Virus record (IMG/VR): IMGVR_UViG_3300010430_000025
Span: 1-64,000 of that record
Origin: a virus
Strand: one strand, 5' to 3'
Length of the DNA stretch: 64,000 nucleotides
The notes under the pieces are model-generated. The model was not told the DNA's origin and searched no databases. It saw nothing but the letters and a program-made list of their open reading frames with translations. The position numbers and the translations under genes are program-made. This document shows positions 1,754 through 28,867 of the stretch, piece by piece (the first letter of the stretch is position 1; every line of letters starts with the position of its first letter).

Positions 1754-1761
1754 TACATTTG
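1754..1761 (+). promoter_or_regulatory. TAnnTTTG box, leaderless start of first virion gene
   Basis: TACATTTG lies 4 nt before ATG 1766. A good -33 TTTG at the usual distance is not visible. Confidence 0.6.
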
Positions 1762-1765
1762 TACT

Positions 1766-2563
1766 ATGGCTTTAGTACCTAAAAATTCTGCTACACCAAC
1801 AACCAACCCCAACTTAATACTCTTTAATGATATTACTGGGGAATATGATGCTACTACTAACCCTACAGGTTTTGGAACACCTAACCCTGATAGGGCAGAT
1901 GTAACAGCAGTATCTTTGAGCGTGCTAAAACCTAATTCAACTACAGCTTTAGTCGTTGATGTTTTGCCATTTCCATATAGGTTATTTAGGCTTAATACTG
2001 TTTTATATGTTACCCCTGATTTATTTGGAGGGAGCGTTATAGGGACAGAAATAACAGGCGCATCTAACGCAACCCCTATTGTTATAACAACTGACACAGC
2101 ACACGGTTTAACTACTGGGCAAAATGCTACGGTACAAAATGTTATAGGCAATTTAGCTGCTAATGGCTATTGGCAAACAACAGTATTAACGAGTACAACA
2201 TTTTCTTTAGACGGTAGCGCAGGTAGTGGTGCTGATGGGGGTAGCGGGGAAGATGCTGTTACGAGACTAGCTACGCAAACAGATTTTGTAGATGGTGTTT
2301 GGAAGTTTGATATAGCCACTACTATAGACAGCGTAGACTATACCACCACCACATATTATCTTCACACAGCATTAATAGAATGTTGTATATCAAAAGAAGT
2401 GGCGAGGGCGGCAGATGCAGGGTGTAAAAACTTTGATAAGTATGCTGAATATGAGAATACATTACAATACGCTAGGGATGCTTTTGATTGCGGCTTATAC
2501 GATATAGCCCAAGATACTATAGATAGATTAACCAAATTATGTAATTGCGATTGTGGCTGCTAA
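1766..2563 (+). CDS. Structural protein with FCCH-like beta domain and Cys-rich tail
   Basis: A 265-residue protein. Residues about 93-150 (ATPIVITTDTAHGLTTGQNA, then GNLAANGYW and TTFSLDGSAGSGADGG) match the beta module often annotated as 'E1 FCCH-like' in phage tail proteins. The C-terminal 65 residues are helical and rich in cysteine, ending LCNCDCGC. The next gene is also cysteine-rich and overlaps by 11 bp, so the two products may interact. A virion or tail-appendage role is inferred from the domain and position; the exact role is unknown. Confidence 0.65.
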   Translation: MALVPKNSATPTTNPNLILFNDITGEYDATTNPTGFGTPNPDRADVTAVSLSVLKPNSTTALVVDVLPFPYRLFRLNTVLYVTPDLFGGSVIGTEITGASNATPIVITTDTAHGLTTGQNATVQNVIGNLAANGYWQTTVLTSTTFSLDGSAGSGADGGSGEDAVTRLATQTDFVDGVWKFDIATTIDSVDYTTTTYYLHTALIECCISKEVARAADAGCKNFDKYAEYENTLQYARDAFDCGLYDIAQDTIDRLTKLCNCDCGC

Positions 2564-2879
2564 ATACCCTTTTACAACAACCGACCTTTTAAGAAGTATT
2601 TTAAACCTAAAATGTGCTATTGGCACAGAGGTGGGAAATATGAATACTGATTTAAAAAACGGTAAGGACGTAACTAAAAGACAGATTAAACTAAGCGATA
2701 TGCGGGTAGTGTTAATCTCTTTAGAAAGGTATAACCCCTTTTACTATGCAGATACGTCTATAAATTGTTTAACCATAGACCAAGTTGGTATATTAATGCA
2801 AAAAGCAAAGCAATACGGTGAAAGCTGTAATTGCAATTCCCCTACTCGACCAGTTACTATCCCCTCTTTCTATTATTAA
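2553..2879 (+). CDS. Hypothetical virion-associated protein, 108 aa
   Basis: The gene starts with GTG 2553, inside the end of the preceding gene. The protein (MAAKYPFTTTDLLRSILNLK..., ending SPTRPVTIPSFYY) has four cysteines, including a CNC near the C-terminus that echoes the CNCDCGC tail of its neighbour. The family was not recognised. A paired structural or assembly role with 1766-2563 is inference. Confidence 0.55.
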   Translation: MAAKYPFTTTDLLRSILNLKCAIGTEVGNMNTDLKNGKDVTKRQIKLSDMRVVLISLERYNPFYYADTSINCLTIDQVGILMQKAKQYGESCNCNSPTRPVTIPSFYY

Positions 2880-2903
2880 TAAGATATATTCCTATAAAAA
2901 TAC

Positions 2904-2911
2904 TAAATTTG
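2904..2911 (+). promoter_or_regulatory. TAnnTTTG box before a GTG start
   Basis: TAAATTTG ends 4 nt before GTG 2916, the same spacing as at several other late genes. This spacing supports GTG as the start. Confidence 0.55.
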
Positions 2912-2915
2912 AAGA

Positions 2916-3632
2916 GTGCAAGTAAAACATATACCTTCTTCACAAGTATTAGCGATAGTAAAGCAAAGGCTTAGATTATCTACGGAAAACTATGATGGGT
3001 TTTTAAACTTAGAATTAGAGTTAATACTACAAAATATTTATTCTCCTGCGGTATATAATAGCTATGAAAGAGTAGTAGAGGTGTGTGATAGCTCTTTTAA
3101 AGTTGCTGGGGCAAAACGATTGTGGGGAGTTCAACTGTGTAGAAATGAAGGCACAGACTCTTCTCTATCACTAATAGACCTTTCAGGAGCTTTTTTTATG
3201 CTATATGATTTAGCTAAGACAACAGTTCCTGTATATGGGGGTTGTTTATTAGACGATTACGTTGTTTATCAAGATGGGTACTGGAAGTTTCATAACGAAA
3301 CTGACGAACTATACGCTAAAGTTTGGTACGAAGGATTTGCTATTGACGATGAAGGGTTTGTTCTTATACCAGAGAATTACCAAAGTTTTCTAGGAAACGA
3401 GTTATGCAGTAGATTTCTGACGAGCTTCCCTAATTATATGAATAACAACCCTAATCTTTCTTTACAATTAGCAAGGACATATAATAGAAAAGCAAGTTTA
3501 GAATACCTTAATGTTAATGGGCAAGACCAGCAGGTAAGAGCCGACGAGACTAAAAACCAATGGAGGTTTGCTAATAGTAAGATAAGAATGAACAGTCCAT
3601 ATTGGAGCGGATATGCTTTTAACAGGATTTAA
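2916..3632 (+). CDS. Hypothetical virion protein, 238 aa
   Basis: Starts with GTG 2916 (MQVKHIPSSQVLAIVKQRLR...). It has an N-terminal helical part and a C-terminal part rich in aromatic residues and Asn. No recognised motif is present. It sits between the Cys-rich pair and the lectin-like protein, so a tail or baseplate-adjacent role is plausible but unproven. Confidence 0.55.
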   Translation: MQVKHIPSSQVLAIVKQRLRLSTENYDGFLNLELELILQNIYSPAVYNSYERVVEVCDSSFKVAGAKRLWGVQLCRNEGTDSSLSLIDLSGAFFMLYDLAKTTVPVYGGCLLDDYVVYQDGYWKFHNETDELYAKVWYEGFAIDDEGFVLIPENYQSFLGNELCSRFLTSFPNYMNNNPNLSLQLARTYNRKASLEYLNVNGQDQQVRADETKNQWRFANSKIRMNSPYWSGYAFNRI

Positions 3633-3634
3633 TT

Positions 3635-4411
3635 ATGAGTATTGGATTTCGATTTGGGTTACAAAAAAAAAGGCGCAGACTTGACCCTGATGCAGCTAAC
3701 TTTTTTACTGTGACGGGTATAACAGACCCAACACAAAAAGAGGCTGTAAATTATTTAGCAACAGAGTTAAAGTCTGAGAGTTTGTGGAGCAAAATGGATG
3801 TGATTTCTCCCTTTGTAGGCGGCAATGCGTCTGCCCATAGTTATAATTTAAAAGATACTTCTCAAAATCAAATAACTTGGAGCGGGACAGTAACACATAA
3901 TGCAAACGGAATAACAGGAAACGGAGTTGATGGTTATGGCGATACAGGTTATATAATAGACCCTGCAAACCAAAACGATTTACACATGAGCATATACCAT
4001 CGAAATAATATTACTACAGGGGTAACAATAGGTACTTTGGGTGCAGCTAATGTTTCTTTTATCATTATACCGTATAACGGCATCGAATATGAGTCTCGAA
4101 GCAATAGCTTTGCGGGCGGCAATACGGCAAACGCAAATTCTACAGGTTTTTTTCTTTCTTCAAGAAACGGATTGACGGATGCAAAGTCATACAAAAATGG
4201 CTCTGTAATATTAACCGATGCGCAGGGTACTAATACGCCTTCTCTATTCCCAACATACATTTTGGCACGAAATAACAATGGAACGGCAGATTTTTTTACT
4301 TCTTCTAACTTAGCTTTTGCGAGTATCGGTGAAAAATTAAATGATGCAGAAGCCTTGCTGTTTTATAATATCGTTCAACAATATCAAACATTATTATCAC
4401 GTAACGTCTAG
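3635..4411 (+). CDS. LamG/concanavalin-like tail appendage protein
   Basis: A 258-residue protein. The segment from about residue 50 (SLWSKMDVISPFVGGNASAH, then SYNLKDT and TWSGTVTHNANGI) through the C-terminal IGEKLNDAEALLFYNIVQQY follows the pattern of phage lectin-like beta-sandwich proteins that bind surface glycans. Starts 2 bp after the previous stop. A receptor-binding or adhesion role is inferred from the family-like pattern and from neighbouring fibre genes. Confidence 0.6.
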   Translation: MSIGFRFGLQKKRRRLDPDAANFFTVTGITDPTQKEAVNYLATELKSESLWSKMDVISPFVGGNASAHSYNLKDTSQNQITWSGTVTHNANGITGNGVDGYGDTGYIIDPANQNDLHMSIYHRNNITTGVTIGTLGAANVSFIIIPYNGIEYESRSNSFAGGNTANANSTGFFLSSRNGLTDAKSYKNGSVILTDAQGTNTPSLFPTYILARNNNGTADFFTSSNLAFASIGEKLNDAEALLFYNIVQQYQTLLSRNV

Positions 4412-4415
4412 GATT

Positions 4416-6395
4416 ATGCCAACAAAACCAATACAAACAGAATTTTTAAAGGGACTTACCGAAGCTCCTTCAAGTATAGTATCAGGATTATCTTTCGTTA
4501 CTCAATCAGGAGGTAAAGAGTTAGCCTACAAGGTTGAGATAGCAAAAATAGCGGAATACATTAATTCTTCTACTGTTATACCTGTAAACCAAGTAACCTA
4601 TTCAGAGGCAGCGACTAAAGTTAGTAGTAATACCCTAAGCGCAGGAGAGATTTATGAGATAACAGACGCAACGCAAGCAAACGGAGGGAAAGGAAGCGTT
4701 TTCTTAACAGCAATTAATGGTAATATATTCTCTAATGACGCTATATGGAAGATAACCTCAGACTTTAAAGGCTTTGCTTGGATTGACTTAGGAGGAACTA
4801 TGACGGGTGGCGATACCGTTACAGTAGTTAGTATAGATAGTGTAAACCAGCTTTCAGCACCCGTAGCTTTTGCAACAGATTATGATGCCTTAGCGATAGC
4901 TATTGCCGCAGATATAAACGCTAACGCTAGTGCTACATATACTGCTTTTGCTATTCAAAGAAGAGTTATATTGATAAATAAGAACACAGGTTCTGCGTCA
5001 AATGGAGATACGGTTGCGGCAACAGGAACTAATTTAACATTACAAGACACTCAAGATGTTACAAACGGTCAAGAGGATGAAATACTCTACATTGATATAA
5101 ACTATGATTTCTTAAAAAACCAAATATATTCAGCGTATTATAATTTTTCCAACGTAAACATAACTACTACAGACAGAAATATATCAGACTTAGGGCATAA
5201 CCCTATTTATTATTTCCCTTTTGGAGATAAAAATAGTGCTTATGGGAGTAGTAGAGACACATTTGAAAATAGTAATTTTAATGGGCAAACATTTAAAGAT
5301 GTTTACTATGTAGATTCATATTTTAATGATAGCAACTTTCATTCAAGTTTAACATGGACGGTAACAGACGGATGCGCTTTAAGAAAAGCAGTATTTGAGA
5401 AAGCAGAATATATAGGGGGAACAATAAACCTAAGTGGAAGTATACATACATTTACAGGGGCAACGGACTATTTTAACCTTAGCAGGTGTATTTTTTATAA
5501 TGATAGTAATTATGATTTCTCTAATACAATAATTGGAGGGAAAGACTTTTCTTTTGGTAGGGAAATGGGAGACGTTAACCTAGATTTAAGCGGAAGCACC
5601 ATAACTCTAGCGCAGAATAGTAAATACGTTGCTAAAACAAACGGTAGTTTTACAATGACAGATACCGTTTTTAACGGGACGTTATTAATACAAGCAGAAG
5701 ACAATATTACTATTGATGCGACTGGAATAACTACAACAAGTGAAATCAAAGTAGATAATTATCTTACAGAAAATATAAATATAGACTTATCAGGGGCTAC
5801 ATTATCAGGAAACTTCAACCTCACAGGGGTAATAACCGATTCGGTAATGGATTTTAGTGGCTGTACAATCGGTGGCGTTTCTATAGTAGATAGCCATCTA
5901 AGAAATTTTGATATTACCGCTACACAAAACTATGGGTCAAAAACAATTACTATACAAAACAGTAATTTATCTGATTATAGCTGGACTGTTCCAGTTTCAG
6001 TAGCCGAAAATATATTTATAAATAAAACTGAGTGGGCTAATGATGTATTTAACTTTAATGTAGATTTAACTTTAGATGGTAGCGCGGGAAGTGGCGAGGG
6101 AGGTGATTCACTAACAGTAGAGCAAAGTGTCCCAGATAACTGGTTTGTAACATCTTCATTTAGCGAGGGTAATTTAGCGGGGTCAGGAAACGTTGAGGTG
6201 GGCATGACAGGGGCTACTACGACTATTATTCCTGCAACCGCAGCAACCTCTTTAAATTCTATTATAGAGCAAACAGTAATAAAAACTAAATCTACTGATA
6301 TTATTAGGGTTTTAGGAGCGATAAGCGGGTCTACCCCTACTAACGACGTTACAGGACAATTAAAAATTTGGGTACAAGGTAAAATAGGAATATAA
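4416..6395 (+). CDS. Beta-helix tail fibre or spike-like protein
   Basis: The start is placed at ATG 4416 (MPTKPIQTEFLKGLTE), 5 bp after the previous stop. An upstream in-frame ATG would overlap the lectin-like gene by 70 bp. The 659-residue protein has an N-terminal region that may attach to the virion. From about residue 280 there are repeated short strands of the type SNFNG, SNFHS, SGSI, SGCTIGG and NSNLSD, as in right-handed beta-helices or pentapeptide-like solenoids. It also carries a DGSAGSGEGG motif like that of gene 1766-2563. Likely a tail fibre; no catalytic residues were identified. Confidence 0.6.
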   Translation: MPTKPIQTEFLKGLTEAPSSIVSGLSFVTQSGGKELAYKVEIAKIAEYINSSTVIPVNQVTYSEAATKVSSNTLSAGEIYEITDATQANGGKGSVFLTAINGNIFSNDAIWKITSDFKGFAWIDLGGTMTGGDTVTVVSIDSVNQLSAPVAFATDYDALAIAIAADINANASATYTAFAIQRRVILINKNTGSASNGDTVAATGTNLTLQDTQDVTNGQEDEILYIDINYDFLKNQIYSAYYNFSNVNITTTDRNISDLGHNPIYYFPFGDKNSAYGSSRDTFENSNFNGQTFKDVYYVDSYFNDSNFHSSLTWTVTDGCALRKAVFEKAEYIGGTINLSGSIHTFTGATDYFNLSRCIFYNDSNYDFSNTIIGGKDFSFGREMGDVNLDLSGSTITLAQNSKYVAKTNGSFTMTDTVFNGTLLIQAEDNITIDATGITTTSEIKVDNYLTENINIDLSGATLSGNFNLTGVITDSVMDFSGCTIGGVSIVDSHLRNFDITATQNYGSKTITIQNSNLSDYSWTVPVSVAENIFINKTEWANDVFNFNVDLTLDGSAGSGEGGDSLTVEQSVPDNWFVTSSFSEGNLAGSGNVEVGMTGATTTIIPATAATSLNSIIEQTVIKTKSTDIIRVLGAISGSTPTNDVTGQLKIWVQGKIGI

Positions 6396-6799
6396 TGGCA
6401 ATAGAAAGTGATTTTAAGTTTCTCGGAAATACAACCGATAAATTAAAGGTTAGAGCAACCCTTGAAGAGTTGCAAGATAATATGTCTCCGACAGAAAGTT
6501 CGGAAAACACTACGGAAAATCGTTCGGTCTCTGTTCCTGCGGGGTATGTAATAAATCAAATTATTATACAGAACACTACTGCTAACCTAGTAACAATAAA
6601 TATAGGAACGACAGATGGAGGCTCTGATGTGGTGAGTGGATTAATAGTGGCTATATCTTCTTTGGGGGCACTCTTGGATTCTTTAATTTTAAAAAGAGTT
6701 TTTAATTTAGCAGCATCACAAACATTGTATATAACATCTTTGAATTGGAATAGTGCTTCCTTAAATGTTTATATAAAACTAGAGAAGCTAATATATTAG
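6395..6799 (+). CDS. Small virion appendage protein, 134 aa
   Basis: The start overlaps the previous stop (TAATG). The sequence is beta-rich (SVSVPAGYVINQIIIQNTTANLVT...) and resembles small trimeric appendage or decoration proteins found next to phage fibres. No family assignment is certain. Confidence 0.5.
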   Translation: MAIESDFKFLGNTTDKLKVRATLEELQDNMSPTESSENTTENRSVSVPAGYVINQIIIQNTTANLVTINIGTTDGGSDVVSGLIVAISSLGALLDSLILKRVFNLAASQTLYITSLNWNSASLNVYIKLEKLIY

Positions 6800-6815
6800 A
6801 AAATAGCTTTTGACC

Positions 6816-6848
6816 TTTGAATAAGTATAAACTTTGTACTTATATTTG
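6816..6848 (+). promoter_or_regulatory. Promoter for secreted appendage genes
   Basis: TTTG (6816-6819), a 21-bp spacer and TATATTTG (6841-6848) match the Bacteroidetes promoter consensus. The box ends 3 nt before ATG 6852. Confidence 0.65.
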
Positions 6849-6851
6849 GGA

Positions 6852-7220
6852 ATGAAAAAAATATTTTATCTGCTACTATTTCTAGGAATAAGTTATAGCG
6901 CAAACTCACAAACACTTACAGACACCCTGTATGTAGAGGTGATTGAAGGAGCAAAAACAGATTTCACCTCCACAGTTACCCTTACTAAACGTGTAAAAAT
7001 ATCCGATACTTTAGGGGCAAAAGTTGTAATTTTAAATGAGACCTCTCAGATTACCTCTGACAACGATATTATTTTGTTTAAGTCTAATGGGATAGGGTTG
7101 CCTCAACTCACATCCGCGCAACGCCTAGCGTTAATTAGTGTAACTATTGGAACTGCGGTATTTGACACTACAATTAATCGCCCTTTATTTTATGATGGAG
7201 CTAATTGGATAATTTATTAA
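6852..7220 (+). CDS. Secreted hypothetical protein with signal peptide
   Basis: The start is set at ATG 6852 because it gives MKKIFYLLLFLGISYSANSQ, a clear type I signal peptide with probable cleavage after about residue 18-20. An upstream TTG lies within the promoter. The 122-residue product ends in GIGLPQLTSAQRLAL... DGANWIIY, a motif style seen in Bacteroidetes phage appendage proteins. The signal peptide is unusual for a virion protein, so export or surface display is possible. Confidence 0.6.
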   Translation: MKKIFYLLLFLGISYSANSQTLTDTLYVEVIEGAKTDFTSTVTLTKRVKISDTLGAKVVILNETSQITSDNDIILFKSNGIGLPQLTSAQRLALISVTIGTAVFDTTINRPLFYDGANWIIY

Positions 7221-7222
7221 CT

Positions 7223-9190
7223 ATGAGAAAAATACTACTAATAGGATTTCTGTTTACAGTACTAAATGGATTTTCACAAACGATAGATTATTCTACTCGA
7301 CAGATATTAGAGAGAGAAGATTCAAAAAACAAGTTGTGGATGCAGTATGATTATTACCAAAACAAATACGACTTAGATTCTTTAAAAGGAAATAATTATT
7401 TCTTTTGGAGCAACGTAATGATGATTGATGACACCCTGAATCATATTGTATGGGTTAGGAAACATCATGGAGATATAGGTAATGGATTTATGCCGCAAAC
7501 TAAAGTAATTATAGGGGCTGATACCACACGAAGCTACTATGAAACAAAAGTAACTGAAGGAGGTGTTGATATACCAATTTTAAATAGGTCTTTAGCTTAT
7601 AGCGATATAGACGGCACGGGAGACACCATTATAGGCTTACAGCATAATCCAGTTACGTATGCTCAGGACACACTATTGTATTTAAACAGAAACATGGGGC
7701 TTCTTAAAAAAGTATATTTCGATAAGGCTTCTCTAGGGTTTACTAGGTTATGGGATATGTCCCCTATAATTTCTGCTTATGGAAAATGGTGGATGGCTGC
7801 ATACCAGCCTTTAACAGCAACAAACTATACTACATACATATTAAGCAGCCCAAATAGAGGCTTATCTTGGAATATTGTAGATAGCGTATTACCTGTAATA
7901 AACAGGTTTCGACCCGAAGAGCCAAGTATAACTTTGGCAGCTAATGGCGATTTATTGGTTTTTAGTAGAAGCGATATAGGAAACTATACTTGGGTAAGTA
8001 GAAGTATAGATAGCGGTCAATCTTGGCTACCTCCCGTAAAAGCATTTCGAGGAGGAAACCATCCAATGTCTATAGCTACTAACTCTGGAGTTCTAGTGGT
8101 TGCCCCCTCAAGGCATATTGCACAAAACAGTCAAGGAGAACCATTAAAAGAAATGAATGACACTTTCTTTTATGACAACCTTATTCTACAAAATGGATTT
8201 ACGTATTACACTAATGTACAGGTATCATGGGATAACGGCTATACTTGGCATGAGTATATAGTAGACAAAGAGAGGGCGGAGAGACAATGGAACTTACCTG
8301 ACGGGGCAAGTGTAGTAGAATTGCCAAACGGAAGGGTAAGAATATATTGGAGTACAGGAGTAGGAGGATTTACAGGGAATGACGTTGCAGACCACAGGTA
8401 TGCAGATATGGAAATAGGGACACTTGAAGGCGATGTTAGATTTGTTGGTGGTACTAGCGTATTAGATTACCACGTAAGCGACCCTAATAACGGAACAAAA
8501 GTATTCTTTGAAGTAGATAGCAATGAGTTTCATACTAAAAAAATAGGAGTAGACAAATACATGTTAGATACTACTTTAATAATAAAAGGCAAGCTAGGAA
8601 TAGGGACAGACACGCCAATATATGATTTCGACTTTAGCTCTGATGGCTCCGCAAGATGGAACAACTTTCAAAACATGAGGGGTTTTTTCTTTCAGAATGG
8701 GGCGGGAACTTTTATAGGAAGAATAATGCGTAACGATTTATTTGGGATGCAATATACTTCATTTGACGGGTTTGGGTGGAGTGTAAACGACCCTACAGGG
8801 ACTTCTAATACAGCGCAAATGACTTTAAATAGTCAGGGAGAGTTAAGTATAGAAAATGTCCCTACAAGCACCTCTTCAAACGACACAGCATTGTACATTG
8901 ATTCTAACAACAGGGTAGTAAAAAGAGCAATACCTCCTTCTCAGTTAACAGGGAGCGCAACACTCGATTTTGCCACTACCCCTGCGCAGCAAAGCGCAGA
9001 TTTAACAATTTCAGTTGTAGGGGCAGCAATAGGAGACCCAGTAACCATAGGATATAACCCCACGAATAATGATGTTACATTCACAGCATTTGTTAGTCCC
9101 GCTAACTTTGTTACGATTAGGTTTAACAACTATAGTACATCCGCAGTCAATCCTTCGCCAATGCTTTTTAAAGCAATAGTTTTCAAATAG
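7223..9190 (+). CDS. Secreted sialidase-like (BNR/Asp-box) protein with fibre-type C-terminus
   Basis: The start ATG 7223 gives a signal peptide (MRKILLIGFLFTVLNGFSQ) 2 bp after the previous stop. Asp-box-like motifs sit near residues 209-216 (SPNRGLSW, degenerate), 261-268 (SIDSGQSW) and 335-342 (SWDNGYTW), consistent with a six-bladed sialidase-type propeller. RFRPEEPSI near 228-236 recalls the region before the first blade. The C-terminus from about 460 (LGIGTDTP... and GSATLDFATT) resembles phage fibre ends. It probably acts on host surface glycans, but substrate and activity are unproven. At 655 residues it is larger than a bare sialidase domain. Confidence 0.65.
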   Translation: MRKILLIGFLFTVLNGFSQTIDYSTRQILEREDSKNKLWMQYDYYQNKYDLDSLKGNNYFFWSNVMMIDDTLNHIVWVRKHHGDIGNGFMPQTKVIIGADTTRSYYETKVTEGGVDIPILNRSLAYSDIDGTGDTIIGLQHNPVTYAQDTLLYLNRNMGLLKKVYFDKASLGFTRLWDMSPIISAYGKWWMAAYQPLTATNYTTYILSSPNRGLSWNIVDSVLPVINRFRPEEPSITLAANGDLLVFSRSDIGNYTWVSRSIDSGQSWLPPVKAFRGGNHPMSIATNSGVLVVAPSRHIAQNSQGEPLKEMNDTFFYDNLILQNGFTYYTNVQVSWDNGYTWHEYIVDKERAERQWNLPDGASVVELPNGRVRIYWSTGVGGFTGNDVADHRYADMEIGTLEGDVRFVGGTSVLDYHVSDPNNGTKVFFEVDSNEFHTKKIGVDKYMLDTTLIIKGKLGIGTDTPIYDFDFSSDGSARWNNFQNMRGFFFQNGAGTFIGRIMRNDLFGMQYTSFDGFGWSVNDPTGTSNTAQMTLNSQGELSIENVPTSTSSNDTALYIDSNNRVVKRAIPPSQLTGSATLDFATTPAQQSADLTISVVGAAIGDPVTIGYNPTNNDVTFTAFVSPANFVTIRFNNYSTSAVNPSPMLFKAIVFK

Positions 9191-9212
9191 TATCACGACG
9201 TTAATCTTTAAT

Positions 9213-9247
9213 ATCCCTTTACAAATATTTCTGTAAAGGGATTTTTA
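9213..9247 (+). terminator. Rho-independent terminator after sialidase-like gene
   Basis: ATCCCTTTACA (9213-9223) pairs perfectly with TGTAAAGGGAT (9232-9242) around an 8-nt loop and is followed by TTTT. The next promoter box starts 2 nt later. Confidence 0.85.
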
Positions 9248-9248
9248 T

Positions 9249-9256
9249 TATCTTTG
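9249..9256 (+). promoter_or_regulatory. TAnnTTTG box before lysis cassette
   Basis: TATCTTTG lies directly behind the terminator and 4 nt before GTG 9261. No -33 element is visible because the terminator stem occupies that place. Confidence 0.6.
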
Positions 9257-9260
9257 GTGA

Positions 9261-9758: not shown

Positions 9759-10129
9759 TGCACTACGTTATTATAATAGGGTCAATCCTTTCTACTCTTA
9801 TAGGGTGGAGCATTACATACGAACCTTTTGGTAAAATAAGTGATGTAAATTATTGGTATATTTATGATAACGCTAAGTCTATTCCTTTATTTTTGGGATT
9901 TATATTGCCTTTTTTAAGGAAGCCAAATAATAGAGAAAGGAAATTATTACTATTATTGTGTATTTACTTTGGAATTAATGCTGTTGCAGATGTTTTTGGG
10001 GTAAATGAAAAAGGCAACTGGTTTACTTATATGTCAGGGGCTTTATTTATATATATTATATTTGCATTGTTGACCCCTAAAAGATGGGCATTTTACTTGA
10101 AATCATTAATAGGTATGGAGAAGCCTTAA
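9758..10129 (+). CDS. Polytopic membrane protein, probable lysis cassette member
   Basis: The start overlaps the previous stop (TAATG). The 123-residue protein has three to four hydrophobic segments (MHYVIIIGSILSTLIGW, IPLFLGFILPFL, LLLLLCIYFGINAVADV, MSGALFIYIIFALL). It lies between two other membrane proteins and the endolysin. Its 3' end overlaps a nested small frame starting at 10084. A holin or lysis-regulator role is plausible but not shown. Confidence 0.55.
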   Translation: MHYVIIIGSILSTLIGWSITYEPFGKISDVNYWYIYDNAKSIPLFLGFILPFLRKPNNRERKLLLLLCIYFGINAVADVFGVNEKGNWFTYMSGALFIYIIFALLTPKRWAFYLKSLIGMEKP

Positions 10130-11019: not shown

Positions 11020-11022
11020 TTA

Positions 11023-11030
11023 TATCTTTG
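11023..11030 (+). promoter_or_regulatory. TAnnTTTG box
   Basis: TATCTTTG ends 7 nt before ATG 11038. The intervening AAAGGAA is purine-rich and could help ribosome binding. Confidence 0.55.
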
Positions 11031-11037
11031 AAAGGAA

Positions 11038-11580: not shown

Positions 11581-11943
11581 TTATCTTTCTATGCCTCTCA
11601 TTCTATCAATAGACTCAATGTTTTGCGACATAAATGAGATTAGAGAGACTTTAGCGTAGGCTGCGGCAGCGCACCATATAAGAATATCAAAACGCTGTCT
11701 TTTTACCTTTAATGCTGGATTACGATAGTTTATTATTTGGTCTATATGATTTTTTCTTAATCGAGCGCATTGACCGTGTTTTGACAATACCTCTGTAAAC
11801 TGCTGTAATGTTCCTCCTTTTTCTCTAAACTTTAAGGCGAGATATGCTAAATTCACAGATGCGTACTCTATTATTTTTCTTGTTTCTTCATAATCTTCGT
11901 AAGTAGATGCAAATGCCGAAGCTGCTATTATATGTTTTGCCAT
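11581..11943 (-). CDS. Orphan leftward gene inside the virion block (possible moron)
   Basis: The only leftward gene within 37 kb of rightward virion genes. ATG 11943 is preferred because it lies 6 nt after a TATTTTTG box. The 120-residue protein is helical and hydrophilic (MAKHIIAASAFASTYEDYEE...), with basic stretches such as ARLRKNHIDQIINYRNPALK. No recognised family. Its own promoter, opposite direction and exact abutment with the 11038-11580 stop suggest an inserted accessory gene. Confidence 0.6.
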   Translation of the reverse strand: MAKHIIAASAFASTYEDYEETRKIIEYASVNLAYLALKFREKGGTLQQFTEVLSKHGQCARLRKNHIDQIINYRNPALKVKRQRFDILIWCAAAAYAKVSLISFMSQNIESIDRMRGIER

Positions 11944-11949
11944 TGTTTT

Positions 11950-11957
11950 CAAAAATA
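11950..11957 (-). promoter_or_regulatory. TAnnTTTG box for orphan leftward gene
   Basis: On the reverse strand, TATTTTTG ends 6 nt before ATG 11943. It is back to back with the portal box, 14 bp away. Confidence 0.5.
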
Positions 11958-11971
11958 AAGATTTAAAACGC

Positions 11972-11979
11972 TAAATTTG
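11972..11979 (+). promoter_or_regulatory. TAnnTTTG box for portal gene
   Basis: TAAATTTG ends 4 nt before ATG 11984. Confidence 0.6.
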
Positions 11980-11983
11980 AAAA

Positions 11984-14133: not shown

Positions 14134-14231
14134 AACATTTGTATATACAAATTATACATTTACAATTATTGTTAATAAAACACAAGTAATTTTAACATTT
14201 GTATTTCCAACATTTGTATATACATTTGTAT
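14134..14231 (+). promoter_or_regulatory. Repeat-rich promoter of scaffold-capsid operon
   Basis: Four copies of (A/T)ACATTTGTAT start at 14134, 14194, 14209 and 14221. The last contains TACATTTG (14221-14228), and the TTTG of the second (14198-14201) lies exactly 19 bp upstream, giving a full -33/-7 pair. ATG 14248 follows 19 nt later, so this message has a short leader. The other copies could be activator sites or overlapping promoters. The 155-bp gap 14093-14247 holds no gene. Confidence 0.65.
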
Positions 14232-16694: not shown

Positions 16695-17993
16695 ATGACA
16701 TATACACCAGTTAGTCAAGAGTTTGATATAAAAAACACTATAGCAGGAACCGATGCTTATTATAAGGATGGTCGCCTTTCTATACTTGACACAGAAAATG
16801 GATTTCCTCAAATATGGACAAAGGGGATAACCAACGCCCCTTATTTTACCAAAAGTTTGCAGGAAATTTTACAAGCTCGCACATATACGTTTGTAGCGGC
16901 AGTTAATACAGTTTATTCTGTGGACATTTCTCAAACCATAAAAAAAGACGGCAGTAGAACCACCAAAAAAATATCTTTTGATAGTACGGGCACATCTGCT
17001 ACTAACGCTGTTATTTTAGCGGGGCTTATTGCTTCTGCTAATAATTTAGGGTTAGAAATAACTGCGGCAGGTGCTTCGGCTACCTCCTTTACTGTTACTG
17101 CTAAAACAGGTTATGCTACTTTCTATGAAAGCGGCTTGACAAATTTAACAGTAGCAAGCGCACAAACAACGTATGCCCCAAGTGGTACTGCTAGTGCGGC
17201 TATAACAACTGTTATTGCCCCTGCAAGTACTGCGGCTGATAGGATTAGCGGAACTAATGTTGTTACTGTAGAAACTGCTGCTGCACATTTACTTCGCCCA
17301 GGCGATTATGTTCAGATAGCTACAACTACTGGTTTTTTAATGACTTATACCGATAATGTCCCCTTGTCTAATAATACTGATTTTGGAAAAACGTTTTCGG
17401 GAGCAATAGGAGGTAAATTCAGAGTAGCTACCGTTCCTACATCAACTACTTTTACACTTGATGGAGTAACAGGGAATGGCGGCACAAACACAGGAGCCTG
17501 TACTATTAACACTATCAATGTAGCGTTTTTAACTACTTTAGGTTCTGAAACTATAGCAACAGGTAAAACATTAAATGTTGTAGATGTAGCTACTATGACT
17601 GTAGCCTCTGTATCAAGTAATGACACGGTTGGAACAGCAGGAACAAGCGGTTCTTTTAGAGTAGGTGTTGGTGGAACAGGAACACGATTCTTAATCGAAG
17701 GTATAAACACTAACGGTTCTTTGAATAGTGGAACAATAACAATAACTGAGGTAGCTCAAAACTCAAGATTTACTTACAACGATTTAACTAATCTTATAGG
17801 GCAACCTTCTGCTATAAGCGGAGACACTTATTCTACTATTAGTTTTACTTATAGTGAGTCTGACGGTAATTTTGTTGGGAGCAACGGGGGTATGGGTAAA
17901 TTTGTTTCGCTTTATGTGAACGAAAGCCAAACAGCCTCTTCTTTGTTTATGTTCAATCTTTATAAGGCTCTGGAATCAGGCAACGTTCGATAG
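16695..17993 (+). CDS. Second capsid-operon structural protein with FCCH-like segment
   Basis: The 432-residue, Thr/Ala/Gly-rich beta protein is co-transcribed with the capsid gene and closed by a terminator at 18007. Residues about 180-275 (NVVTVETAAAHLLRPGDYVQ ... TTFTLDGVTGNGG) match the FCCH-like beta module seen in four other proteins here. It could be an auxiliary or decoration capsid protein or an abundant tail protein. Its position suggests high expression. Confidence 0.6.
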   Translation: MTYTPVSQEFDIKNTIAGTDAYYKDGRLSILDTENGFPQIWTKGITNAPYFTKSLQEILQARTYTFVAAVNTVYSVDISQTIKKDGSRTTKKISFDSTGTSATNAVILAGLIASANNLGLEITAAGASATSFTVTAKTGYATFYESGLTNLTVASAQTTYAPSGTASAAITTVIAPASTAADRISGTNVVTVETAAAHLLRPGDYVQIATTTGFLMTYTDNVPLSNNTDFGKTFSGAIGGKFRVATVPTSTTFTLDGVTGNGGTNTGACTINTINVAFLTTLGSETIATGKTLNVVDVATMTVASVSSNDTVGTAGTSGSFRVGVGGTGTRFLIEGINTNGSLNSGTITITEVAQNSRFTYNDLTNLIGQPSAISGDTYSTISFTYSESDGNFVGSNGGMGKFVSLYVNESQTASSLFMFNLYKALESGNVR

Positions 17994-21218: not shown

Positions 21219-21495
21219 ATTTATAGCTAATAGGCAATATATAGAAGAAAAAATTGACTGCATATACCCTTTAATGAAATTGGTAAAAGGATATAGTTAT
21301 ATAGCAAATAAAGTTAACGCTCGATTAAAAAAAGAAGGAAGTACAAAAAAAACAACTACAGATGAAGTTTATAGGTGTATAAATAAGAAACACTTAGTTG
21401 ACGAGTATATACCCTTAATAATAATTGAAGAAACATTTTTATTTTTTAAACAAATAAAAAAGGCTATCCCCACCGAAGCATTAGACAAAGGATAA
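21205..21495 (+). CDS. Hypothetical protein after terminase
   Basis: ATG 21205 (MKKVRFIANRQYIEEKIDC...) overlaps the end of TerL by 14 bp; a GTG one codon earlier is also possible. The 96-residue, Lys-rich helical protein contains TDEVYRCINKK and may bind nucleic acid. Function unknown. Confidence 0.5.
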   Translation: MKKVRFIANRQYIEEKIDCIYPLMKLVKGYSYIANKVNARLKKEGSTKKTTTDEVYRCINKKHLVDEYIPLIIIEETFLFFKQIKKAIPTEALDKG

Positions 21496-21501
21496 TAATG
21501 C

Positions 21502-21509
21502 TATATTTG
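21502..21509 (+). promoter_or_regulatory. TAnnTTTG box before connector gene
   Basis: TATATTTG lies 25 nt before ATG 21535, leaving a short A-rich leader. Confidence 0.45.
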
Positions 21510-21534
21510 TGTATAAAGAAAATAAAGATTAAAA

Positions 21535-22578: not shown

Positions 22579-22621
22579 GCTGTTGTAATGTCAAAATAAT
22601 AATTCTTTTCTTTTAATTAGT

Positions 22622-22629
22622 TACCTTTG
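22622..22629 (+). promoter_or_regulatory. TAnnTTTG box before stabilization-like gene
   Basis: TACCTTTG ends 3 nt before GTG 22633. Confidence 0.55.
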
Positions 22630-22632
22630 ATT

Positions 22633-25600
22633 GTGGCTTTTGAAGAAAAAATAACGCCCCGAGGGGGCATGGACAGCGAAACTGATTTAACAGACATCAG
22701 CAACGGTAACTATTTGCCCACAGCTTATAATATTAGGCATAAAACAACTGACGGCAACTCAACTAATCCCCCTCAAAACATATTAGGAAACGAGTATGTA
22801 TATACTGGAGGTTCTGTTACACGGCAAAATAAAAGAGTAGCTATAGCTATAAACGCTATTGCTGCTGGAACAGGAACTATAGTTTTTAAATCTTCGGGAA
22901 ACGGAACTGCTATAACAACCACGTCTTTTACAATACCTATTAATGATGTAGAAACAGCTATAGATAATGCCGTTTCGGCTGCTAATACTGCACTAACCTC
23001 TTATGGAGGTGTTACTGAAATAGCCTCAGAAAGAATTGTTAATAGCAACACCTCTGCTTCTTATGTTATAGAGATGGGGGGGCTATCACAGAACAATCAA
23101 GGGATAGACTGGCAGGTATCGGTTACGGGAAGTCAAACATTTTTATTCACTACGCAAGAAGCTATCCCAGAGGGATTGGCAGGAGACCTTATAAAAACAG
23201 CACATTTAGTATTAAACAATAATAATTTTCAGTATTGGACAACGCAACAGCTTTTACCTGAAACTAGACAGGTAGTGGAGGCTTCTAACGCTTCTCCTAT
23301 ACGGATAACAGAAGATACAGCACACGGGCTTAGTGTTGGCGACTTAGTAAATATTAGTGGTGTTAAAAGAAATACTAATGCAAATGGGTTATGGTTTGTT
23401 TCCTCAGTAGCGGATAATTTCACTTACGACTTAGCAGGGAGTGCGAGTTCGGGGACAACTGCTAGTATAGGAATATCAAGCGGTACACAATACCTATCAA
23501 CAGGAGAAATATTAATAACTACTAGCGGAGCGCATTCTATTAGTAATGGAGCGACTGTTTTTATAACAGGTTCTGATGCTAGTGCAAATGGAGAATGGGA
23601 AGCGTTAGTAATATCTACTACAACTTTAGTATTAAAAAGCAGTACTTACACGGGTAATTTTGGCGCAGGAGGAACGATAGTTCAAATAGCTAACGCTACT
23701 CATAACCCTGTTGGATTAGGAGAGATAGGAGTAGTTACTGTAGATTCTAATGACCTGCATACATATACAAGGCTAATTAGAAGTACTGAGTTTAATTTTA
23801 GAACTAAAAAACAACAAGATATTCGTGGGCAATTTTATAATGACACCTACGCCATTTACTGGGATGATGATTTTAATACAGGAAGGGTATTTTACTATGA
23901 CTATGTCGCCGCTAATGGCTTTGTAACTGACGGGGCAATAAATTATATTGATACCAACGGTAGATACACCTATGGAGACATATCTACAGGTTTAAACTTA
24001 ATATTAGTGCCTGACACCGTTGATATTGCTTTTGAAGGGCAATTACAAAGCGGGGGCGCATTAACAGCAGGAAATAAAAGGTATGCGGTAAGCCTAGTAA
24101 CAAGTTCTTTAGAGGGGACAGCCTTTTCTAAGCTATCACCCCCTATACCAGTTTATTCGGCTAATACTAATAACCCTACTAATATTCTAGGAAACGAAGC
24201 AGGGGAAGGTACATCAAAAGCAAACCAAATAAGGATAAGCGGTATAGACCCCGACGTATTTCCTTTTGTTCAAGTAGCGGTAGTAGATTATAGCGGTGGC
24301 TCTTTTTCAGGAACAATAATAGACAGGTATGAAGTGCCTGTAGGGGGTGAGTTGGTGGTAACACATTTTGGGAATGAATCTACCGCCCAAGACTTAGACC
24401 TTACTTTACTAAACCAAATTACAGCAGATATACAGTCTGCTAAAAACATAGAGATATTAGAAAATAGGCTTATAAGGAGTAATATTACCGCAACAGCAGA
24501 ATATGATTTAAGTGAGTGGGCACAGAATTCGAGTTATAGGCTAAAAAGAGGCTCTATGACCTCCGTAGGGAGTGGAGAAGCACCTGTATTTGGAGAGTAC
24601 CAAGACCCTTCCAATGTGTTTAATTTTACATCGGCTATGCTTAATGAAACCTATAGAATGGGTATTCAATTAGAAGATAGAGATACAGGGGTATGGACAA
24701 GAGTTTATCATGTGGGTGATTTTAAATTTGATACTTCTGCAATAGGAGGCAGAAAGCTAGAAACACTAACGGATTATAATTTAACTAATACTCCAACGCC
24801 ACCAGCAGATGCTACTGAAACATATTATTTTTATTTAACCTTAGAAGGGTTTGATTGGGATTATGTACTGCCTAACGGTAAAACGATAAGGGAACAATAT
24901 AAAAGCAGGAGGTTTAGTAGGGCTGAAATTAACACAAGAACTATTTTGCAGACGGGCATAGTTTGTCCAAAGTCTGACAAAGACCCTCTTGTGTTTTTTG
25001 GACCCGCATTAAACTCTTGTGTATTAAGTTCTACCACAGCCGTAACCTCGCCTAGTTTCCCTTACGCTCTGGGGGCGACAGATACAAGAAGGCAGTCAGG
25101 GGTGTTGTTTTCTCCAGATTATATCTTAGGAAGTGTTCAGCCAGAATACGTGAGTGGAGACGAGCTTTATACTTTTGGGCAGCCTCTTTTTCAAAGAATA
25201 AAAGACACAGGGACAGGCGCAGGGACAAGACCTACCGCTGGATATTCAACAATGACAGAGCTTTATGGGGCTGTTGGCACTTCTTTTGACACACATGATT
25301 TAGACGGAATTACCCCTATTACGAGTGATGAAACAGTTGTTATTTCGGGAGTAACAATAGAGGGGCTTGCTTTTTTAAACGGACTGAATACCCCCACTTT
25401 TAATAGAGTTCCGTCAGGGCTTGCTTTTGCCATTAACACCACCTTCATAACTGATACAGCGGGGTTGATGGCTAGTGATTATGCTGTTTATTATTATCAA
25501 TATTACCGTGCTTCATCTAACCAATATGGAAGCCCTGAAAATAATCAATGGATAGATTTAAGTGCTATTTACGAAATAACAAACGATACTTCTAGCTCTA

Positions 25601-27474
25601 CACAAGATGTAGTTTATTTACAAGACTGCTTTACTCAGAAAAGTTATATACGCATTTATGATGCTGCATTTACAGGGCAAAACGGAAAAGTTCTAGGGTT
25701 TTATTCGCAAAACTTAATTAATTCTCAACTAAGGAACGAAACAGGAGAAACAAATCAATTTATTTTTCCGAAAGGGAATGGGAGTAATAGTGGTTTTGAT
25801 GGCAGAATAAATGAAGTTACAGTATTTGAAAATACTGAACCGTTTGAATACAACTTAGGCTATAACCTTCCTGTGCAAATACAGTCGGAAGTGGGATATG
25901 ACTCTTTATTTCCAAAACAGACTAGATACCCTTCACGGGTATATTATAGTGCGTTTAAACCAAGTGGTTCATTAGTAGATTATTTTAGGACATTTTTACC
26001 TTTAGATTTTTACGACCAAGATGAAAAGTTTGGTGAGATTAACGGTATGCTTGCTGTTAACGGGGAACTTTATACATGGCAGGAATTTGCCCTTTATAGA
26101 CAATTCTTTAGCACACGAGCAGAGTTTAATAGTAGCGACGACACCCAAACAATAGTAGTAGGTAGTGGTAATGTATTTGCTCAGAGAGGAAGAATGGTTA
26201 ACTCTATAGGGTTAACCCATAAATGGGGAATTAATATAGTAAAAACAAACGAAGGACGAGACGCTGTTTACTGGATTAACGCTAAGTTAGGTAAGCTAAT
26301 GCGATTTGCGGGTGATGGGGCGAGAATTATTAGTGAAAACGAAAAAGGAGAAGGTAGAATGAGAGCCTTTTTAGCAAATAACCTTAAATGGACTATTGGT
26401 AAAGATACCCCCGCAGACAGTCAAGGAATACATATTGGTATTAACCTGCGATACTCTGAAATATACTTAACAGTAAGAGCAAAGAAAGAAACATCAGCAT
26501 ACGACAATTCTACCACCTATAGCGCAGGAGATAGTGTGCTTTACACCCCTAATTTATATGAACGCAACTTTGAACAAACAGGTGAAATATACGAGTATAC
26601 TAACCCTTCCCCTGCGTCAGGGAACCTGCCTACAGACACCGACTACTGGAGAAAGATACCTCACAGCGACAATAACTACTACAATGAATATACATTGGTG
26701 TATGACGAAGACAGAAATACTTTTGAATGTTTTTACCACGTAAAACCTACAATATGGGAATCGTGGAACGATAAAATATACAGCCCCAGACCTGTAACAA
26801 CTCGTTCACGTATGTACTTACATGAAAAAGGGTATTATGGAAGATGGTATGTAGAGAACGGAGAAACGCTAGGCTCTATAACAAAATCAGCAGGTTCTGT
26901 TTCTGTAAGCGGTTCTGGCACATCGTTTTTATCAGAGTTTCAAGATGGTTACGGGTTGTTAGTAAACGGAAATACTTTAATTGTAATAGCTGTTTCTGGT
27001 GATACAGGGTTGCGTATTGATGATATTTATATTGATGCTAACGGAGATGTGCAAACAGGGGCTACAGCATTAAGTTTTACAGGGGCTTCTTATGTTCCAA
27101 TAAGCCAACAGCTAAGACATTCTTATGTAGAGCCAATAGCTAATATGGAAAATGTTAGTATAAAGTGGTATAAAGCTATTCTTTTTTCCACTCTAATTAT
27201 GCCGTATTATGTGAATTTTAAAACCACTTCTCAGATTAGCTATTTAGATAGCGGAGACACTTCTTATGGAGACCCACAATTTATAGACAGAGAAGGGCTT
27301 TGGTTTAGCCCTATTCAAAACGACAGCACTTTATTAGGGATAAACAACGGAGACAGCTCCCAGCTATACGGGAAATGGCTAAGAATAAAACTAACATACA
27401 GATATTTGCTTTTTCAAGTTTTGGAAGACATAATTGTGAAACAAAATATTTCTAATAGAAATCACAGAAACTAA
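22633..27474 (+). CDS. Very large packaged-DNA stabilization / muzzle-like tail protein
   Basis: GTG 22633 is chosen (reading VAFEEKITPRGGMDSETDLT) because it sits 3 nt behind a TACCTTTG box; a TTG at 22627 lies inside that box. The 1613-residue protein opens with RGGMDSETDLTDISNGNYLP and TAYNIRH, the pattern at the start of P22 gp10-like and short-tail muzzle proteins. Residues about 215-355 carry two FCCH-like modules (DTAHGLSVGDLVNISGV and TTSGAHSISNGATVFITGS). The remainder is beta-rich with many Asn/Asp/Tyr turns. It probably closes the portal channel and forms the tail tip. It is far longer than P22 gp10 (about 470 residues). Confidence 0.65.
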   Translation: MAFEEKITPRGGMDSETDLTDISNGNYLPTAYNIRHKTTDGNSTNPPQNILGNEYVYTGGSVTRQNKRVAIAINAIAAGTGTIVFKSSGNGTAITTTSFTIPINDVETAIDNAVSAANTALTSYGGVTEIASERIVNSNTSASYVIEMGGLSQNNQGIDWQVSVTGSQTFLFTTQEAIPEGLAGDLIKTAHLVLNNNNFQYWTTQQLLPETRQVVEASNASPIRITEDTAHGLSVGDLVNISGVKRNTNANGLWFVSSVADNFTYDLAGSASSGTTASIGISSGTQYLSTGEILITTSGAHSISNGATVFITGSDASANGEWEALVISTTTLVLKSSTYTGNFGAGGTIVQIANATHNPVGLGEIGVVTVDSNDLHTYTRLIRSTEFNFRTKKQQDIRGQFYNDTYAIYWDDDFNTGRVFYYDYVAANGFVTDGAINYIDTNGRYTYGDISTGLNLILVPDTVDIAFEGQLQSGGALTAGNKRYAVSLVTSSLEGTAFSKLSPPIPVYSANTNNPTNILGNEAGEGTSKANQIRISGIDPDVFPFVQVAVVDYSGGSFSGTIIDRYEVPVGGELVVTHFGNESTAQDLDLTLLNQITADIQSAKNIEILENRLIRSNITATAEYDLSEWAQNSSYRLKRGSMTSVGSGEAPVFGEYQDPSNVFNFTSAMLNETYRMGIQLEDRDTGVWTRVYHVGDFKFDTSAIGGRKLETLTDYNLTNTPTPPADATETYYFYLTLEGFDWDYVLPNGKTIREQYKSRRFSRAEINTRTILQTGIVCPKSDKDPLVFFGPALNSCVLSSTTAVTSPSFPYALGATDTRRQSGVLFSPDYILGSVQPEYVSGDELYTFGQPLFQRIKDTGTGAGTRPTAGYSTMTELYGAVGTSFDTHDLDGITPITSDETVVISGVTIEGLAFLNGLNTPTFNRVPSGLAFAINTTFITDTAGLMASDYAVYYYQYYRASSNQYGSPENNQWIDLSAIYEITNDTSSSTQDVVYLQDCFTQKSYIRIYDAAFTGQNGKVLGFYSQNLINSQLRNETGETNQFIFPKGNGSNSGFDGRINEVTVFENTEPFEYNLGYNLPVQIQSEVGYDSLFPKQTRYPSRVYYSAFKPSGSLVDYFRTFLPLDFYDQDEKFGEINGMLAVNGELYTWQEFALYRQFFSTRAEFNSSDDTQTIVVGSGNVFAQRGRMVNSIGLTHKWGINIVKTNEGRDAVYWINAKLGKLMRFAGDGARIISENEKGEGRMRAFLANNLKWTIGKDTPADSQGIHIGINLRYSEIYLTVRAKKETSAYDNSTTYSAGDSVLYTPNLYERNFEQTGEIYEYTNPSPASGNLPTDTDYWRKIPHSDNNYYNEYTLVYDEDRNTFECFYHVKPTIWESWNDKIYSPRPVTTRSRMYLHEKGYYGRWYVENGETLGSITKSAGSVSVSGSGTSFLSEFQDGYGLLVNGNTLIVIAVSGDTGLRIDDIYIDANGDVQTGATALSFTGASYVPISQQLRHSYVEPIANMENVSIKWYKAILFSTLIMPYYVNFKTTSQISYLDSGDTSYGDPQFIDREGLWFSPIQNDSTLLGINNGDSSQLYGKWLRIKLTYRYLLFQVLEDIIVKQNISNRNHRN

Positions 27475-28157
27475 TGAAAGAAAAAACCTTAAAAGAACTT
27501 ACGCAAGATAGTATTGCTCAAGTTTCAGGTGCAGCGAAGGTAGATGAAAGTAAGTTTTATGAGCCTACCGTAGATAATTTAATACACGAAGTAAGGGCTT
27601 CTATATTATCTAAACAACAGAATATAATGAAGTCTTGGGTAAGTGAGTTTTTTCCTACTTACTCTACAGAATTGCAAGAAAATGATTATTGTACTATAAA
27701 AATAGAATCCCCCACGCCTATAATATTTCCAAATCAGGGTGAGGCTTTTATTTATGTAGGCTCTAAGAACGGCATTACACCTTTTAGAAGGATAGGAATG
27801 ATGGGGAGTATTGCTACTGATTACGCTCATCCTGCTACAAAGCCATCTCAAAAAAGAGTTAGCTATGATTTTTCTAACGAAGGAACGGGCTACACCTATA
27901 TAAGGGTGTACGGTAATGTAAGCATAGAAAATATTTTAGTAAAACTGATAGCCTTTAACCCAACGCAAATCCCAACTTTTAGAAGAGATACTGATATATA
28001 CCCAATAAGCGGAGAGCTAATACCCGAATTAAGATTAGGTGTTTTTAATAAACTTATGCAGCAAATGGCACAAACGCCACAAGATACTATTGCGGACGGT
28101 GAAGACCCTTTAAACGCTATTTATAGGGCAGCAAACGCAATGAAAAGGAATAGGTAG
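27474..28157 (+). CDS. Tail ring or neck-like protein, 227 aa
   Basis: The start overlaps the previous stop (TAATG). The protein has an N-terminal helical part, a central beta part (about 75-160) and a C-terminal helix ending in IYRAANAMKRNR. Position between the stabilization-like protein and ejected proteins suggests a tail ring or tube component, as in crAss-like podoviruses. No decisive motif. Confidence 0.5.
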   Translation: MKEKTLKELTQDSIAQVSGAAKVDESKFYEPTVDNLIHEVRASILSKQQNIMKSWVSEFFPTYSTELQENDYCTIKIESPTPIIFPNQGEAFIYVGSKNGITPFRRIGMMGSIATDYAHPATKPSQKRVSYDFSNEGTGYTYIRVYGNVSIENILVKLIAFNPTQIPTFRRDTDIYPISGELIPELRLGVFNKLMQQMAQTPQDTIADGEDPLNAIYRAANAMKRNR

Positions 28158-28178
28158 ATATATATGTAATTATTTAAT

Positions 28179-28186
28179 TAACTTTG
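28179..28186 (+). promoter_or_regulatory. TAnnTTTG box before ejected-protein operon
   Basis: TAACTTTG ends 3 nt before ATG 28190. Confidence 0.55.
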
Positions 28187-28189
28187 CTT

Positions 28190-28867
28190 ATGCCAATACC
28201 ATTAGCCGTGCCCATAGCAGGAGCCGTTGTAAAAGGAGCTACAGGAGCTTTTCAGACTTACAATGCAAATAAAAGAATAAAAGCATTAGGGAAAAGACCC
28301 TCTTTTTCTATTACTCCAGAGCAAGATAAAAGCTATAAAAGAGCAGAAAGAGAAGCTCTTTTTGGCTTTAGCCCCGAAGAAACAAATGCTTTTCAACAAA
28401 GAATAGCAAGGCGAAACAATACTATATTTAATCGAGGATTGGCAATAGGTGGGGGAGGCGTTAGTCAAGCTATTAATGCGGCTGTAATGGCAGGAGAATT
28501 GGGCGCAGAAATGGATTTTGCTTCTCAAGGGGCACGACTAAGAAGGGATAAAATACGTTATGCAGACCAAAGAGGTGATGTAATCTCTAACCAAAGAAAT
28601 AGAGATACTCAAGAGCGCATTTCTTATAGAAACGCTGTAGAACAGGCTTTAGGCAGGGCAAAGAGCGACGGAATGCTTAATTTTTCAGAAGCATTAACAG
28701 ATATACCCAACGCTTTTTTATTAAAAGATTACTACGATAATCCATTAATTATGGATTACTTAAAATCCCAAAACCAACCCACAGGTAGTGCTTCTTTGCC
28801 TAAATACGGAAAAGATAATTTTAGATACGCCCAACCTATATTAGGATATAACCAAAGAAAAACTTAA
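28190..28867 (+). CDS. Internal virion / ejection protein (small)
   Basis: The start is ATG 28190 (MPIPLAVPIAGAVVKGATGA); an in-frame TTG at 28184 lies inside the promoter box. The 225-residue protein has a glycine/alanine-rich hydrophobic N-terminus and a long Arg-rich amphipathic helix (about 50-150), features of ejection proteins that line or cross the host envelope. It is first in a three-gene run ending in the polyvalent protein, with TAATG coupling to the next gene. Confidence 0.55.
   Translation: MPIPLAVPIAGAVVKGATGAFQTYNANKRIKALGKRPSFSITPEQDKSYKRAEREALFGFSPEETNAFQQRIARRNNTIFNRGLAIGGGGVSQAINAAVMAGELGAEMDFASQGARLRRDKIRYADQRGDVISNQRNRDTQERISYRNAVEQALGRAKSDGMLNFSEALTDIPNAFLLKDYYDNPLIMDYLKSQNQPTGSASLPKYGKDNFRYAQPILGYNQRKT

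Follow-up and report, generated by a model that had tools for sequence, protein, structure and literature searches.

The cI gene of phage lambda, expressed from PRM, gives a leaderless phage mRNA that is transcribed from its own start codon. It is a single regulatory gene, whereas the trait predicted here for another phage covers core virion genes (portal and muzzle). In mycobacteria, leaderless genes with a 5'-terminal ATG or GTG have been shown by transcription start site mapping, ribosome profiling and mass spectrometry (PMC4633059). They carry RTG at the 5' end, not TTG or CTG, and the enrichment found in our phage shows the same triplet preference; the mycobacterial trait is cellular and measured, whereas the one described here belongs to a phage clade, concerns a different phylum and is predicted from sequence.

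The promoters most similar to those considered here are the sigma-ABfr promoters of Bacteroidota (-33 TTTG and -7 TAnnTTTG; PMC7366714, PMC6847099, PMC9723704), with which the phage shares the -7 box, the avoidance of G at its N positions, an AT-rich upstream flank and perhaps a weak -33 region. In Flavobacterium johnsoniae the promoter consensus is TAHHTTTG, with no G at the N positions, +1 sits 4-5 nt after the -7 box and there is no clear -33 element (PMC6847099), and in F. psychrophilum the -7 box spans -12 to -5 (PMC9723704). Host 5' untranslated regions (UTRs) have a median length of 24-32 nt (PMC7366714, PMC6847099, PMC9723704), whereas 79% of the scored boxes in the phage lie 3-7 nt from the start. 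Leaderless mRNAs are reported to be rare in the Bacteroidota species mapped so far: 3.7% of 5' UTRs are shorter than 10 nt in Bacteroides thetaiotaomicron (PMC7366714), and 5.5% are leaderless in F. psychrophilum (PMC9723704).

Among phages, the Bacteroides phages crAss001 and DAC15 have related late genes with upstream -7 boxes, as in our phage, but unlike it all 15 of their 15 scored boxes are leadered, with a gap of 25 nt at the crAss001 portal. The cultured Cellulophaga phage phi14:2 (KC821624) is the nearest isolate found in which the feature occurs: in its structural genes gp081 and gp104, 5 and 6 nt, respectively, separate a box from the annotated ATG, whereas the gap at gp103 is 29 nt, for a predicted leader of ~25 nt. 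It differs in a leaderless share of only 2/6 and in lying outside the clade of our phage in a muzzle tree. Literature searches returned nothing relevant on leaderless mRNAs in crAss phages or in the late genes of phages.

We analysed bases 1-64000 (hereafter the window) of an IMG/VR virus record of 73,393 bases in total. The features of this sequence and its relatives suggest that host-type promoters fused to start codons probably give rise, in a crAss-like phage clade, to mRNAs with no leader, or almost none, from most genes that have a promoter of their own.

Identity of the phage

The portal of the window phage matches PHROG 6547 (E 2e-32), its muzzle is of the crassvirus type (Pfam PF25731, E 4e-30) and its terminase matches PHROG 6681 (E 2e-7). 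Judged by these three homologues, it is a crAss-like phage, a relative of Crassvirales. The same three proteins had no match in named phage records (tblastn). A scan of genome contigs with the window portal led nowhere, as did a viral scan with window gene 18066, and a second portal scan returned only G001, a 48-kb relative already found, whose portal and muzzle are 53% and 70% identical to the window proteins. A muzzle-profile scan of IMG/VR yielded 31 loci. In the muzzle tree, the window phage lies inside an 11-row clade (support 100/100) that excludes crAss001, DAC15 and phi14:2, and it stands apart from the Steigviridae isolates.

Boxes at a fixed distance from start codons

The preliminary description had placed ten TAnnTTTG boxes a few nucleotides before start codons, three of them GTG. 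All ten are present with exactly the gaps given, as are the three GTG codons (2916, 9261 and 22633), and we found two further sites with a gap of 4, 40348 (-) and 52270 (+), as well as a less convincing one at 38923 (-) (Table 1). Additionally, leadered boxes occur in the window and, beyond it, at 66380 and 67736 (record coordinates).

Table 1. Boxes and an associated terminator-like hairpin in the window. Gap is the number of nucleotides between box and start codon.
Feature	Coordinates	Strand	Gap (nt)	Start codon	Gene and remarks
TACATTTG box	305..312	-	4	ATG 300	AntA antirepressor, PF08346 (E 4e-26)
TACATTTG box	1754..1761	+	4	ATG 1766	265 aa
TAAATTTG box	2904..2911	+	4	GTG 2916	238 aa
TATATTTG box	6841..6848	+	3	ATG 6852	122 aa
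Intrinsic-terminator-like hairpin	9210..9245	+			Stem -14.6 kcal/mol; T-rich tail enters next box
TATCTTTG box	9249..9256	+	4	GTG 9261	165 aa
TATCTTTG box	11023..11030	+	7	ATG 11038	180 aa; predicted leader 2-3 nt
TATTTTTG box	11950..11957	-	6	ATG 11943	120 aa; divergent from portal promoter
TAAATTTG box	11972..11979	+	4	ATG 11984	Portal, 702 aa
TACATTTG box, leadered	14221..14228	+	19	ATG 14248	Virion-region gene
TATATTTG box, leadered	21502..21509	+	25	ATG 21535	Virion-region gene
TACCTTTG box	22622..22629	+	3	GTG 22633	Muzzle, 1613 aa (PF25731)
TAACTTTG box	28179..28186	+	3	ATG 28190	225 aa
TAAATTTG box	38928..38935	-	4	ATG 38923	194 aa; weaker case, box overlaps upstream CDS
TATCTTTG box	40353..40360	-	4	ATG 40348	142 aa
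TACCTTTG box, leadered	45013..45020	+	22	ATG 45043	Early-region promoter
TATATTTG box	52258..52265	+	4	ATG 52270	62 aa

The spacing is tight and far from random, as had been claimed. TAnnTTTG stands 3-5 nt before the ATG or GTG of an open reading frame (ORF) of at least 60 aa at 14 sites in the 73-kb record, a few of which are probably no promoters (for example the intragenic 1922 and 16263), whereas the 29 other orders in which its letters can be arranged gave a mean of 0.66 sites and a maximum of 2. Plotted as a histogram, the gaps of the record form a single sharp peak at 3-4, with almost no sites at other values, and the triplets enriched at gaps of 3-5 are ATG and GTG only, with no enrichment of TTG, CTG, ATT or others. 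In a genome of 65% AT, one might attribute such a pattern to chance or to the composition of AT-rich intergenic DNA beside start codons. That explanation is vanishingly improbable, given the yield of the permuted boxes, the empty ATG gaps from 9 to 18 and the recurrence of the pattern in further contigs of the clade, and on the permuted-box test we rejected a chance origin of the gap peak. The permutation control for the clade comes out inflated, as it counts these sites again in a frame-shifted copy (AT..TTGT inside TATATTTGT).

Predicted promoter function and transcription start

Every listed leaderless site has an exact -7 box. At 47 pooled sites, G occupies 2 of 94 N positions compared with ~15% elsewhere (p = 3e-5), and the upstream flank is AT-rich. 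A -33 element (TTTG or TTG) would be expected ~19 nt upstream of the box; occurrences of TTG are concentrated 18-21 nt before it (14 among the 47 sites), many sites having none, and a -33-like TTTG element lies ~21 nt upstream of the box of gene 6852. A classical -33 element is absent from view at many sites, and F. johnsoniae likewise lacks a clear one. In their consensus letters and avoidance of G, the boxes behave as Bacteroidota sigma-A -7 elements, in support of the earlier reading of them as -7 elements.

Additionally, the T-tract of a terminator hairpin runs into the box at 5 of the 47 pooled sites, compared with 2 of 470 shuffles. As the terminator ends directly at the box, transcription must start afresh at these sites, either at the box or beyond it. 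Compact cassettes that join a terminator and its T-tract to a -7 box and a start codon occur at 9210-9256 of the window, at 11882 of G002, upstream of 8051 in L045, at 4611 in L048 and at 4767 in L051.

The motif could instead be a translation-initiation element on leadered mRNAs, and no promoter, with the true start sites further upstream. A ribosome-recognition element would likewise keep a constant distance to the start codon, and Bacteroidota, which lack Shine-Dalgarno sites, use other initiation determinants (PMC6847099). We consider this highly improbable. The motif equals the known -7 box to the letter and likewise keeps G out of the N positions; it also stands at gaps of 19-33 nt before other genes and occurs in crAss001 and DAC15; the fixed-gap peak is absent from the pooled hosts; and at the several boxes where terminators end, transcription must restart.

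The sequence shows the boxes, their spacing, enrichment and conservation, and start codons that are nearly forced; we infer from it that the boxes are used, where exactly +1 falls and that the 5'-terminal codon is translated. With a gap of 4, the published offset from box to +1 would make the first base of the start codon, A or G, the first base of the transcript. The preliminary description had held that late genes appear to be leaderless. The term is exact for gaps of 4-5 only, which fit the published +1 offset; sites with gaps of 6 and 7 have predicted leaders of 1-3 nt, and at the gap-3 sites (6852, 22633 and 28190) the usual +1 would land within the codon. At these last sites, either +1 shifts to a purine or the sites are weak.

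Putative divergent promoters also occur in the window: 40 bp separate the start codons at 11943 and 11984, and two -7 boxes stand back to back between them. A similar divergent pair, one box having a mismatch, lies at ~17510-17544 in G001.

Start codons

The box-proximal codon is at most sites preceded by an in-frame stop 3-30 nt upstream (48 nt in the case of the antirepressor gene), and no further in-frame ATG follows before codon 46, if at all. The start codons are therefore near-forced. Gene 1766 has no later in-frame ATG at all, and GTG 2916 has an in-frame stop 6 nt upstream and its next in-frame RTG at codon 56. The 6852 protein begins with MKKIFYLLLFLGISYSANSQ, which resembles a secretion signal. 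The revision of several start codons proposed earlier is supported: the longest-ORF starts at 22627, 28184 and 6834 move to 22633, 28190 and 6852. At the 47 pooled sites the start codons are 42 ATG and 5 GTG, the search having been designed for these two triplets.

The boxes could also be promoters with ordinary leaders, if translation began at an in-frame codon further along the gene. In the muzzle, codon 13 is an ATG, conserved in G001, that would give a 36-nt leader, gene 11038 has an in-frame ATG at codon 21, and gene 28190 has an in-frame GTG at codon 7. We regard this as very unlikely in general, because the remaining sites have their next in-frame ATG at codon 46 or beyond, or lack one, and because later starts would drop conserved sequence: the portal aligns with its G001 orthologue from M1, with residues 1-116 conserved. 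The 21535-type gene (MTG family) shows the same MTG N-terminus whether its orthologue is leadered, as in G001, or leaderless, as in L034-L046. Even at the muzzle, GTG is also GTG in G001, the N-termini align without gaps and the codons ahead of the ATG show synonymous changes. The specific enrichment of ATG and GTG at gaps of 3-5 also argues against downstream starts. Thus, by alignment and reading frame, the box-proximal codon is probably the true translation start at most sites, with the muzzle, 11038 and 28190 uncertain.

Conservation among relatives

Conservation of the spacing among relatives, which the preliminary description had made a test of its reading, was checked, and box and gap are kept in G001 and in clade orthologues. 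In G001 the arrangement is TAATTTTG-aact-ATG for the portal and TATCTTTG-tttt-GTG for the muzzle, TATATTTG-atga-ATG in the rearranged region of the 9261 orthologue and, at the orthologue of 11943, AATATTTG-cagg-ATG, with one mismatch in the box. The 60 bases upstream of the portal and muzzle show background identity only between window and G001 (16/60 and 20/60). Across the clade, a box precedes the ATG by 4-7 nt at portal, MTG-family, 28190-type, giant-protein and post-portal genes. Box and gap persist in orthologues of late genes, portal and muzzle among them, whose proteins are 26-70% identical, the clade portals and MTG-family proteins being ~26% identical to those of the window.

Gaps nevertheless vary between branches: they are 5-6 at the portals of L037, L039 and L045, and 5-7 at the 28190 orthologues of L037, L038, L039, L041, L045 and L046. 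In the branch of L036, L039, L045 and L046, gaps at many genes have jointly moved to 5-6, with predicted leaders of 1-2 nt, as if the start position of the polymerase or the tolerated leader length had changed. The orthologue of 21535 has a gap of 25 in G001 (box TAGCTTTG) and of 4-6 in L034-L046. The leader status of this gene is constant within branches and switches between them.

Late and early genes

The preliminary description had held that the tight spacing separates virion and lysis genes from early genes. This is not supported: the virion-region genes 14248 and 21535 are leadered, with gaps of 19 and 25, and the antirepressor (300), gene 40348 and the replication-region gene 52270, the first of a stretch leading to a replisome organizer and primase, all have a gap of 4. 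The ratio of leaderless to leadered is 8:2 in late genes and 4:3 in the rest (Fisher p = 0.59). With counter-examples both ways, we rejected a clean late/early split.

Leaderless share in phages and hosts

For comparison across genomes, we scored exact intergenic boxes before ORFs of at least 100 aa, with gaps of 3-7 taken as leaderless and gaps of 8-60 as leadered. The leaderless share is 11/14 (79%) in the window record, 28/47 (0.60) in the clade without the window phage and 0/15 in crAss001 and DAC15 together. A leaderless rule for all crAss-like phages was rejected, these two being wholly leadered. In Bacteroidota the share is 20/220 (9%) in 1.34 Mb from 80 genomes, a sample that leans towards Bacteroidales. 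The window record exceeds these pooled hosts at p = 1e-8.

Leaderless use seems to vary widely across Bacteroidota. A survey of box-N4-ATG in 118 Bacteroidota genomes revealed a few with an excess, and two, G048 (L164-L183) and G122 (L144-L163), stand out by a sharp gap-4 peak; their leaderless shares, 0.32 and 0.37, greatly exceed the published B. thetaiotaomicron and Flavobacterium figures. The phage might simply mirror a host lineage rich in leaderless genes, in which case there would be no phage trait, although the promoter mechanism would still apply. The absence of leaderless boxes from crAss001 and DAC15 fits this view, as Bacteroides rarely uses leaderless mRNAs (PMC7366714). The phage share of 0.79 is, however, above that of every sampled host genome (p = 0.002 against G048 and 0.013 against G122), and the clade share of 0.60 is also higher (p = 0.005 and 0.04). 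We consider mirroring of the host a tenable but somewhat less probable account; the leaderless habit may partly follow the style of the host.

Proposed mechanism and significance

In the reading that we favour, fusion of host-type promoters to start codons, the boxes would be -7 elements for the host housekeeping (sigma-ABfr-type) RNA polymerase, and transcription would begin on, or 0-3 nt from, the ATG or GTG start codon. Most separately promoted phage genes would then yield leaderless mRNAs, on which a ribosome reading the 5'-terminal RTG would initiate translation. Some cassettes would be tighter still, the terminator T-tract entering the box and 4 nt separating the box from the start codon. 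The trait would belong to the crAss-like clade and be set gene by gene: certain orthologues carry a leader in one branch but not in another. As late genes are closely packed, upstream read-through could be a source of leadered copies of the same cistrons. It is also conceivable, but rather unlikely, that the clade has shifted most of its expression to leaderless ATG/GTG mRNAs, with ribosomes or initiation factors biased late in infection to 5'-terminal starts and structural proteins made by a route unlike that of most host proteins. Searches for phage-encoded translation factors (S21 and initiation factors) gave no Pfam match among the window ORFs searched.

Shine-Dalgarno sites are scarcely used by Bacteroidota ribosomes. 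For the question of how these ribosomes choose start codons, a clade that appears to rely on leaderless core virion genes, GTG starts included, is a natural test set, and gp081 and gp104 of phi14:2 offer a ready laboratory test case in a cultured phage. Additionally, gene starts of crAss-like phages are corrected, and transcript 5' ends are predicted to within a base or two. The simple rule of a box, 4 nt and RTG may allow leaderless genes to be found in uncultured Bacteroidota, for which the peaks in G048 and G122 are examples.

Other features of the window

The AntA-type antirepressor at 1-300 (-) is truncated by the edge of the record, and may hint at a temperate ancestor or at superinfection control. 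Five tRNA genes (Tyr, Ser, Ser, Leu and Leu) form an array at 44396-44819 (-), with -7 boxes at 44948 (-) and 44298 (-), and a single tRNA-Ala(CGC) lies at 58805-58878 (+).
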